Under the pieces are notes generated by a model. That model was not told the DNA's origin. It made no database searches and worked only from the letters and a program-made list of their open reading frames with translations. DNA of 64,000 nt from NCBI GenBank assembly GCA_032718865.1, contig JALUTQ010000041.1, positions 744,001-808,000 on the forward strand, read 5' to 3'. Positions 57,127 to 59,479 of this stretch are shown here, one piece after another. This DNA is from Tilletia caries. Lineage: Eukaryota > Basidiomycota > Exobasidiomycetes > Tilletiales > Tilletiaceae. Position 1 is the first letter of the stretch. The number at the start of each line of letters is the position of its first letter. Position numbers and translations under genes: made by a program.

Positions 57127-59479
57127 ATGTCCAAGCCTACACACCGACCGATGCCGCGGCTGTATCTGCTCCGACACGGCGAGACCGAGTGGAGCATCAG
57201 CGGACAGCACACAGGTCGATCCGACATCTCCCTGACTGCCAACGGAGAAGCCGTCATGCGCGAGCTCGCCCCGCGCATCCTCTCGCGCTCCGACGCAGAC
57301 ACCAAGCTCATCAACCCGCGTCATATTGCGCATATCCTCGTCAGTCCGCGGAGGAGGAGTCAGCGCACCCTCGAGCTCCTCTTGGAACATCTCTCCGAAC
57401 AGGAGCGAGAGCAGATCGTCAAGCCTGAGATCACCCAGGACTGCAGGGAGTGGGACTACGGCGGTGAGTATCTTGCTGATGCCCTCGGTCGATATCCGTT
57501 CTTGCTCACTCTTGGCTTGCGCGTATGGCCACTGCAGCATATGAGGGCCTCAACGTGAGTTCGGTCCCCGCTGCTCAGATGCTGCATTATACTTCAACTT
57601 CTGATCCTTCGCTGTTTCCACAGACGGCAGAGATCAAGTTGAAGCGACCAGACTGGAACATCTGGACCGACGGCACCCCGGACCACCCGGACAAGCCAGA
57701 GGAGCTTCCTGTGAGTACCCTTACCGGTCAACACCCAAGCTCCGAGAGTCGTTTCCCTGCCAGCTGACCTGCGCTGCCGTATTCAACAATTTGTCACTCA
57801 ATAGGGTGAATCAGCGGAGCAGATGACGGCGCGAGTCGACGGTGTCATTGCCAAAGTGCGCGCTCTCCAGAAGGCTGTCATTGAGGGTCACCCCGAGACG
57901 CTTCACGACGATGCAGTGATGAAACACGGCGGGGATATCATGATCGTTGCGCATGGGCACTTCAACAGGTGAGCCAACGATGCGATTCTAAGAATGCCCG
58001 CAACCTGTCCTGCATCTGCATTCCACAATCTCACGCTCCAATTTCTGTAACAGAGTCTTCATTGCTCGCTGGTTGGGGTTGCCTATCACCACAGGCCGAG
58101 GGTTTGAGGTCGACGCAGGCGGAATGGCGCTCCTCACATACACCCACAATACCTTCGACGAGCCTGCGATCGGAGCCATCTTCAGCGCCAAAACGGGTCC
58201 TAAACCTGTTCTCGAGAAGGAGGAAGACACTCATCTCAAGGCTACCAGTCAGTTAAACGATTTCACTGTCTGCTTCTTTGTTCATGATCGTTCCTGACAC
58301 CGTCTGGATCCTCTCACAGTCAAGCACGAAGAGCACCAGTATCTAGCGCTGGTCAAGCGCGTCATCGACGAAGGTGAACTACGGCCAGATCGAACAGGCA
58401 CCGGGACGCTCGCCGTCTTTGCTCCGCAGCCTTGTCTCCGATTCAGCCTGCGAAATGGCACACTTCCGCTCCTCACGACCAAACGAGTGTTCCTGCGTGG
58501 AGTGCTCGAAGAACTGCTCTGGTTTGTGGCAGGAAAGACGGACTCCAAGGTAAGCCTACCGTTACGCCAGCGTGCTCGTCCCATTCCTTCCGTAGCTGAT
58601 TCCTCCTCCCTTACCCCTTTTCCCCAGATCCTCTCCGAGCGTGGCATCTCAATCTGGGACGGGAATGGCTCGAGAGCGTTCCTTGACTCCCGCGGCCTCA
58701 CGAACCGACGCGAAGGCGATCTCGGACCTGTCTACGGCTTCCAATGGCGGCACTTTGGCGCAAAGTATGTCGACTGTGACACCAACTACACGGGCCAAGG
58801 CGTCGATCAGCTTGCGGAGTGTGTCCGGAAGATCAAGGAGAATCCGACCGATCGAAGGATCCTGCTGAGCGCATGGAACCCTGCGGGTACGCATCCTGAT
58901 TGAGTCCCAGTTCCCTCTCGATGAGCGTGTTCAGCTGATAAGTGGTGTGCTATCTTGGCCCCAACACAGACCTAGAACAGATGGCACTTCCACCTTGCCA
59001 CATGTTCTGCCAGTTCTATGTCTCGCTCCCATCTAAGGATGCTCCCCCCTCGACGCGGCCGGTTCTGAGCTGCCAGATGTACCAGCGCTCCTGCGATTTG
59101 GGACTCGGCGTTCCTTTCAACATTGCCAGCTATGCTCTCTTGACGCACATGGTGGCACAGGTCACGGACTGCGAGGCCGGCGAGCTCGTGTTGAGCATGG
59201 GCGACGCGCACGTGTACCGCGACCATGTCGAGCCCTTGAAGAGTGAGTTCTGTATCCCCCACCGCCGGGAAGAGTGGCCACATTCTCTGGAATCATTCCA
59301 CTGAAGCGTCCTGATTCATCTTTCTTCTTCTCTCAGCTCAACTTGCCCGAGAGCCGCGACCGTTCCCGACGATCGCGTTTGCGCGGCAAGTGTCGAACAT
59401 TGACGACTTCAAGTCCGAAGACTTCGTCGTGGAGGGCTACGCTCCTCACGGAAAGATCGAGATGAAGATGAGTGTATGA
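57127..59479 (+). CDS. Predicted SHB17-type sedoheptulose-bisphosphatase / thymidylate synthase fusion
   Basis: Nine exons (57127-57463, 57538-57554, 57624-57710, 57805-57968, 58054-58247, 58320-58549, 58628-58886, 58970-59242, 59337-59479) read in one frame for 567 residues. Residues 1-266 are a histidine phosphatase of the Shb17 type: LLRHGETEW (His17), SPRRRSQRTLELL, REWDYG, IVAHGHF (His197) and the Shb17-like ending GFEVDAGGMALLTYTHNTFDEPA. Residues 267-567 are complete thymidylate synthase: RPDRTGTGTLAVF, WDGNGSRAF, ALPPCHMFCQF (catalytic Cys439), SCDLGLGVPFN, GDAHVYRDHVEPL. The two halves join through a phase-1 intron (ACC A / TC AAG). Upstream of the TS half, its frame has a TGA at 58292-58294 and no Met, so it has no start of its own. 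Predicted: riboneogenesis phosphatase and dTMP synthesis on one chain. Confidence 0.85.

Follow-up and report, generated by a model that had tools for sequence, protein, structure and literature searches.

A putative bifunctional Shb17-type phosphatase and thymidylate synthase gene of Tilletia caries, with relatives across Ustilaginomycotina

We analysed a 64,000-nucleotide stretch of contig JALUTQ010000041.1 of Tilletia caries (positions 744,001 to 808,000 of the forward strand; hereafter the window), in which a nine-exon gene at 57127-59479 is predicted to join an N-terminal histidine phosphatase of the Shb17 type and a C-terminal thymidylate synthase (TS) in one polypeptide. Comparison with other sequences confirmed that this region encodes one predicted fused protein, an observation that goes beyond chance. 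Taken as a whole, the data are best explained, and in our judgement with good probability, by a bifunctional housekeeping enzyme that would go back to a single ancient fusion and would have replaced the stand-alone genes.

The fused gene and its second copy

The features of the gene are the following:

57127..59479, + strand: fused gene, nine exons, 567 aa, Shb17-like phosphatase and TS
57127..57463, + strand: exon 1, with the RHG motif (His17), Arg75 of SPR, and Glu108
57538..57554, + strand: exon 2, 17 nt, of equal length in the second copy on contig C4
57624..57710, + strand: exon 3
57805..57968, + strand: exon 4, with the second His motif, HGH (His197)
58054..58247, + strand: exon 5, end of the phosphatase half and linker
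58248..58319, + strand: intron 5, the joining intron, 72 nt, phase 1, donor GTCAGT, CTGAC branch-like site, acceptor CTCACAG
58320..58549, + strand: exon 6, beginning of the TS half, without a start codon
58628..58886, + strand: exon 7, TS
58970..59242, + strand: exon 8, TS with the catalytic Cys439
59337..59479, + strand: exon 9, TS C-terminus, ending in KMSV and followed by TGA

Once joined, the exons form a single open frame of 567 codons plus TGA, with a predicted product of 63.7 kDa; the corresponding proteins of relatives are expected at 58-63 kDa. A previous sequence-only reading of this DNA had proposed nine exons in one frame, a joining intron that splits the codon A|TC, and a protein of roughly 63 kDa; the coordinates proved to be exact, and the intron and the mass agreed as well. 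That reading had also described the TS half as lacking a start codon, and indeed no methionine occurs in the window protein between residue 226, in the phosphatase half, and residue 434, inside TS. Since Met226 is not conserved (it is Ile in relatives such as P0003 and P0008), an internal start of TS seems unlikely. Upstream of the exon 6 acceptor the TS frame is closed by a TGA (58295-58297), as had been noticed, but this codon lies 22 nt before exon 6 and not 24.

Two Pfam domains were detected in the protein, His_Phos_1 (PF00300; residues 12-236, 127.5 bits, E 7e-37) and Thymidylat_synt (PF00303; residues 272-567, 361.9 bits against a cut-off of 24.3, E 2e-108), the latter matched over its whole profile (1-266 of 266). 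The search for Pfam domains gave no others, so the protein carries neither DHFR nor the flavoprotein domain of phosphopantothenoylcysteine decarboxylase (PPCDC).

In the searched genome (38.1 Mb, 40 contigs), a second full fused copy was found near the end of contig C4 (L006, G000:C4:2666381-2669596). All eight intron phases are equal in the two genes, and exon lengths are equal save for one nucleotide in exon 9, with identities of 77-87% in exons and 52-67% in introns. Over 550 codons, Ks was 1.03, Ka 0.0375 and Ka/Ks 0.036; the separate values were Ka/Ks 0.060 and Ks 0.75 for the phosphatase half, and Ka/Ks 0.021 and Ks 1.29 for the TS half. Both halves are under purifying selection. The body of the joining intron has diverged in the C4 copy, with its GTCAGT donor, CTGAC branch-like site and CAG acceptor kept. 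Because Ka/Ks is low and these junction signals persist between copies at Ks ~1, both halves and their joint have been kept by selection for a long time.

These results bear on two alternative readings of the gene. The first one is that two adjacent genes have been wrongly joined, and some database models are in fact visibly wrong. The deposited Tilletia controversa protein P0001, for instance, is letter-identical to the window protein over the first 407 residues, across the junction, and then follows a differing splice model in TS and continues into a downstream exon. However, the TS half has no in-frame start codon, the C4 copy has kept the junction intron, and 25 fusions deposited from other genomes can be aligned over the two halves; two separate genes were thereby ruled out, and the probability of an artefact is negligible. 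According to the second alternative, one gene would give two products, the phosphatase alone when intron 5 is retained and the fusion when it is spliced. Read-through of this intron in the window gene adds 16 residues before the TGA at 58295-58297, and its donor is unlike the GTGAG or GTAAG type donors found at six of the other seven introns. In the C4 copy, however, read-through passes the intron without a stop and runs 100 residues out of frame through the beginning of the TS exon, so the early stop is not conserved. Furthermore, the donor, branch-like site and acceptor are conserved, the predicted proteins of other species are joined, and TS alone could not be produced by retention of intron 5. 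We therefore consider two products improbable.

The nucleotide that distinguishes the two exons 9 lies near the 3' end of TS and puts the C4 copy out of frame over approximately its final 17 codons. This shift is either real or an assembly error; if real, the TS half of that copy may be inactive, with the phosphatase half intact. Whole-genome doubling was considered as an origin of this copy. In the 9 kb surrounding it, tblastn gave no match to the divergent neighbouring open reading frame (ORF) of the window gene, and a single old duplication is preferred.

The search of the genome with PF00303 matched only the two fused copies and two fragments, and a Shb17-like query from Cryptococcus matched only the two fused loci. 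Since no other match of either kind was found save the two TS fragments, the fused gene is the apparent source of both Shb17 and TS in this fungus, if both are needed. The fragments are truncated duplicates of the TS 3' end. One is in the window (11949-12158, - strand; exon 8) and adjoins a CRAL/TRIO ORF, and the other, at positions 4125-5690 of L010 (G000:C36:291500-300500), comprises exon 8, exon 9 and downstream flank. Both start at the same point, matching window 59048, and seem to go back to a single old segmental duplication, itself copied again later. In addition, two extra partial T. controversa entries (P0039 and P0137) extend over both halves, with pieces of the size of exons missing and the frame changed; in Tilletia, the fused locus may have a tendency to duplicate.

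Distribution, origin and active sites

The search with the whole protein gave 7987 scored matches, of which the best 120 were listed, and the domain counts refer to these. Both Pfam domains were present in 46 of the 120, with 19 named species among them and the remaining rows unnamed. The named species comprise Tilletia controversa, Exobasidium rhododendri, Violaceomyces palustris, Tilletiopsis washingtonensis, Kalmanozyma brasiliensis, Tilletiaria anomala and Sporisorium reilianum, together with Testicularia cyperi, Pseudozyma flocculosa, Melanopsichium pennsylvanicum, Parajaminaea phylloscopi, Sympodiomycopsis kandeliae, Thecaphora frezii and six Malassezia. Six of these lineages were checked; Exobasidiomycetes, Ustilaginomycetes and Malasseziomycetes are represented, all of them Ustilaginomycotina, to which the remaining named species belong as well. 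An oddity of a single genome is ruled out by these 19 species. The sequence-only reading had suggested looking for the same domain order in other basidiomycete proteins, where it is now found, and had implied that a fusion to this phosphatase family is rare, which does not hold for a fusion present in three classes of Ustilaginomycotina.

Outside the group, the named and placeable matches listed carry TS as a stand-alone protein (Agaricomycotina, Cystobasidiomycetes, Cyphobasidiales and some early-diverging fungi), and the Shb17-like proteins listed from other Basidiomycota and from Ascomycota are also stand-alone, mostly of 200-270 aa, without a TS domain. Among the 120 matches listed for each half, no named full-length stand-alone TS or Shb17-like protein from Ustilaginomycotina was found, several unnamed rows being unassignable. 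The sole named short phosphatase entry of the group in these lists, P0125 of Ceraceosorus bombacis (192 aa), does not reach the second catalytic His and is apparently a gene model cut short. Where the sources name the fusion proteins, they are mostly labelled 'thymidylate synthase' or 'hypothetical'. One fusion entry, P0036 of Malassezia cuniculi (959 aa), continues after the fusion into a long membrane-protein-like tail that replaces the very end of TS, and is probably a merged gene model.

The trees were built with 27 fusions, namely 25 of the 46 both-domain rows and the two gene models that we built for the Tilletia copies; the rows excluded were fragmentary ones, P0001 with its faulty annotation, and a small number of others. 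In the unrooted TS tree, which also included 18 chosen stand-alone TS, all fusions fell on one side of a single branch (support 94/96, found in 96% of bootstrap trees), M. cuniculi forming a long branch. The unrooted phosphatase tree, with 16 chosen stand-alone phosphatases, presented the same kind of single-branch split (support 82/66, 80% of bootstrap trees). A single origin of the fusion is favoured by these trees, although not proven. It would have taken place in an ancestor of at least Ustilaginomycetes, Exobasidiomycetes and Malasseziomycetes, the stand-alone genes being replaced afterwards.

Seventeen active-site positions, whose catalytic or substrate-binding roles we assume, were checked in the same 27 fusions. 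The six of the phosphatase (R16, H17, R75, E108, H197 and H199) and the eleven of TS (R291, E331, W334, G357, C439, R469, S470, D472, N480, H510 and Y512) were invariant in 27 of 27. Among solved structures, YKR043C/Shb17 was the best PDB match of the window phosphatase half (121.9 bits, against 96.9 for 2a6p), of the Malassezia furfur half (121.7 against 99.6) and of the Cryptococcus homologue (139.1 against 127.9), with margins over 2a6p of about 25, 22 and 11 bits, respectively. The C-terminal DAGG segment of the window protein also aligns with Shb17. With Shb17 as the best solved relative of three queries and the TS profile covered in full, the proposal of the sequence-only reading that these two enzymes share a polypeptide is upheld. 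The closest solved TS by sequence is that of Cryptococcus neoformans (PDB 2aaz).

A structure model of the relative P0007, from the non-pathogenic yeast Kalmanozyma brasiliensis (mean pLDDT 87.4), presents two confident domains and a linker (239-254) with pLDDT under 50; its pTM of 0.57 makes the mutual placement of the domains unreliable. The TS half of this model was matched to Cryptococcus TS with a TM of 0.93 over the target, ranked first by Foldseek. The spacing between the halves, taken from EP to QYL, ranges from 24 to 47 residues in the 26 fusions where it was measurable.

The promoter block and its neighbours

Two further features lie upstream of the gene:

56991..57007, + strand: AACGCGTCGCGTCGCGT, a 17-nt extended MCB-like block shared with the C4 copy
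56041..56883, - strand: divergent neighbour ORF with an LYR-type and a weak rhodanese-like domain, sharing the intergenic region

The MCB-like ACGCGT that the sequence-only reading had pointed out in the promoter is present at 56992-56997, inside AACGCGTCGCGTCGCGT. The block is identical in both copies and ends 119 nt before the ATG in the window gene and 116 nt before it in the C4 copy, the two promoters being 57% identical over the alignment. The longest shared run reached 13 nt in 300 dinucleotide shuffles and 5-10 nt in the eight introns, against the 17 nt of the block. Genome-wide, AACGCGTCGCGTCGCGT occurs 37 times and the reversed pattern 0 times, so it is a recurrent element, and we propose it as a candidate regulatory element of this fungus. 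For the shorter ACGCGTC the window shows no enrichment (12 occurrences, with 9.94 expected), and for this reason only the long shared block counts as promoter evidence. As the intergenic region also serves the divergent ORF, AACGCGTCGCGTCGCGT could act on either gene.

The neighbours of 20 of the 37 sites were scanned, taking one outward ORF on each side (40 ORFs). Seven of the 20 sites adjoin a replication, repair or segregation domain over the Pfam cut-off (MCM twice, SSB, Dam1, RMI1, HIRAN and DEAD_2), a classing of domains that was made unblinded. On 4 of the 40 sides (L029 left, L031 left, L035 right and L044 left) the nearer ORF was taken and not the longest; when the longest-ORF rule is applied strictly, the SSB site drops and 6 of 20 remain. 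Ambiguous cases were excluded from the count: SNF2 with RNase H (L035), RCC1 (L036), and Scm3, just under the cut-off (L041). The other sites are next to UCH, clathrin light chain, eRF1, signal peptidase, class II tRNA synthetase, actin-capping protein, a few weak domains, or none. In the control, one of 10 arbitrary window sites had such a domain (a PIF1-like helicase), an eleventh having been removed prior to scanning on account of an ORF that overlaps the fused gene. The excess at AACGCGTCGCGTCGCGT over this control was not significant (Fisher p 0.15 for 7/20 and 0.23 for 6/20).

The exact block was then sought by gene family, with the places assigned to genes manually, two weak MCM rows discarded, and the distance taken from the first domain match rather than from the start codon. 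It was found upstream of 2 of 8 MCM places and of none for DNA polymerase B (0/4), RNR (0/1) and PCNA (0/1), nor for the control places of CCT (0/10) and proteasome (0/19). MCM alone differs from the controls (2/8 against 0/29, p 0.04), and the S-phase families together give 2/14 against 0/29 (p 0.10). The block is in keeping with an MCB-type element, and its link to S-phase genes is weak. A search of the open literature gave nothing relevant on MBF in Ustilago.

As for the divergent ORF, its LYR-type domain scored 24.1 bits with the whole ORF, against a cut-off of 24.8, and 27 bits with the first part alone, while the rhodanese-like domain was under the cut-off; this ORF is possibly another fusion. 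Elsewhere in the window there are ORFs resembling those of mobile elements, for a DDE transposase (2002-2937, - strand), a PIF1-like helicase (23803-25521, + strand), possibly of a Helitron, and a reverse transcriptase (41603-44599, - strand).

Proposed function and comparison with known systems

In the enzyme we propose, the N-terminal Shb17-type phosphatase would hydrolyse sedoheptulose-1,7-bisphosphate, and perhaps fructose-1,6-bisphosphate too, and a flexible linker would join it to a C-terminal TS expected to make dTMP. Each dimeric chain would probably carry two independent active sites. TS is a homodimer. Shb17 appears as '2 x 31 kDa' in a table of one paper (PMC8151747). As both partners are homodimers, a two-chain particle with four active sites would be the simplest guess for the dimer arrangement. 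Because the two reactions share no metabolite, channelling is not expected; any coupling would come from the fixed 1:1 stoichiometry and from one promoter with an MCB-like element, which might give S-phase expression. Such coupling, with G1/S expression of both activities, had been suggested in the sequence-only reading and is still a conjecture. The metabolic context is given by yeasts: according to the same paper on Shb17, Fba1 makes sedoheptulose-1,7-bisphosphate and its hydrolysis by Shb17 feeds the pentose phosphate pathway (PMC8151747). In Kluyveromyces lactis, the shb17 deletion worsens the fba1 deletion (PMC8151747, PMC11817168).

A stronger version of this proposal is that, across Ustilaginomycotina, Malassezia included, a single S-phase enzyme ties riboneogenesis obligately to dTMP synthesis. 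Selection would have favoured the fusion because the supply of pentose phosphate is matched to the demand for DNA precursors, either through the fixed stoichiometry or through the two halves touching within a shared dimer. We regard this version as doubtful. We hold a frozen accident without coupling to be roughly as probable as an adaptive account of any kind: an ancestral read-through would have joined the genes, the TS N-terminus would tolerate unrelated partners, and the fusion would be kept as losing either half is costly. To this explanation we give somewhat less than an even chance. It agrees with the variable spacing between the halves and the disordered linker of the P0007 model. Moreover, TS occurs with other N-terminal partners and is C-terminal each time, with DHFR and, in Schizosaccharomyces pombe, with PPCDC (PMC6695811), and two papers report no distinct growth phenotype for the shb17 deletion in baker's yeast (PMC8151747, PMC11817168). 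On the other hand, both halves are under purifying selection and the fusion is found in three classes; the lack of a named full-length stand-alone version from Ustilaginomycotina among the listed matches fits either reading.

It is also conceivable, although unlikely, that the substrate of the phosphatase half is some other phosphorylated compound, be it fructose-1,6-bisphosphate or a different one, riboneogenesis then not being the point. The histidine-phosphatase family is broad in substrate, the NCBIfam matches of this half include acid phosphatase, ribazole phosphatase and mutase (these three under cut-off), and the Malassezia phosphatase halves have diverged. However, for the window half, the Malassezia half and the Cryptococcus homologue alike, the solved structure that matches best is Shb17, and the alignment extends to the DAGG segment of the window protein.

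Several observations weigh against the bifunctional enzyme of single origin, mostly on its phosphatase side. The phosphatase tree gives only moderate support to one origin. The phosphatase half has a higher evolutionary rate than the TS half, the difference being greatest in Malassezia, with its altered DAGG segment. The substrate of the phosphatase is assigned by similarity, and 2a6p, a phosphatase-type protein of mycobacteria, is not far behind Shb17 for the window half. The best 50 Foldseek rows for P0007 were all TS or DHFR-TS, leaving the phosphatase fold without structural confirmation. Finally, PF00300 detects seven other histidine-phosphatase loci in the genome, none of them matched by the Shb17-like query.

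In our searches of the open PMC literature we recognised no published description of a phosphatase-TS fusion, most subscription papers being outside this scope. The architecture of two enzymes, of which TS is essential, is apparently undescribed; since the sequences are public and both Pfam labels are already on them, it is overlooked as an architecture, not unseen as a protein. It would add a further N-terminal partner of TS to DHFR and PPCDC. Being common to smut fungi, bunt fungi and human skin yeasts, the fusion is a candidate molecular marker for a fungal subphylum. In addition, the phosphatase half is easily overlooked under TS or hypothetical labels, and a genome of this kind could be recorded as lacking SHB17. 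The fusion also makes it testable whether the physical joining of pentose-phosphate supply to dTMP synthesis matters in S phase.

Regarding the known systems, Shb17/YKR043C of S. cerevisiae (PDB 3f3k, 3lg2, 3ll4 and 3oi7) shares the catalytic motifs and is the closest solved relative of the N-terminal half, but it is a stand-alone protein, and its listed homologues outside Ustilaginomycotina have no TS domain. Without Shb17, sedoheptulose phosphates accumulate in S. cerevisiae. The Cryptococcus TS is also stand-alone. The classical TS fusion is DHFR-TS of protists and plants, where TS is also the C-terminal half of a two-enzyme polypeptide, as seen in the PDB matches; here, in contrast, the N-terminal partner is a histidine phosphatase, and the halves share no substrate or product. 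Molero et al. in 2013 reportedly described Hal3 of S. pombe as a PPCDC-TS gene fusion. The sequence-only reading had rightly given DHFR-TS as a precedent, but its list was incomplete, as Hal3, with PPCDC fused to a functional C-terminal TS, is already published (PMC6695811; reference entry, PMC9604783). Hal3 is also a fungal fusion, with a C-terminal TS behind an unrelated metabolic enzyme, and differs in its partner, the decarboxylase, and in its lineage. The C-terminus of TS closes over the active site, and the C-terminal position of TS in all three kinds of fusion, with DHFR, with PPCDC and with the Shb17-like phosphatase, fits this closing.
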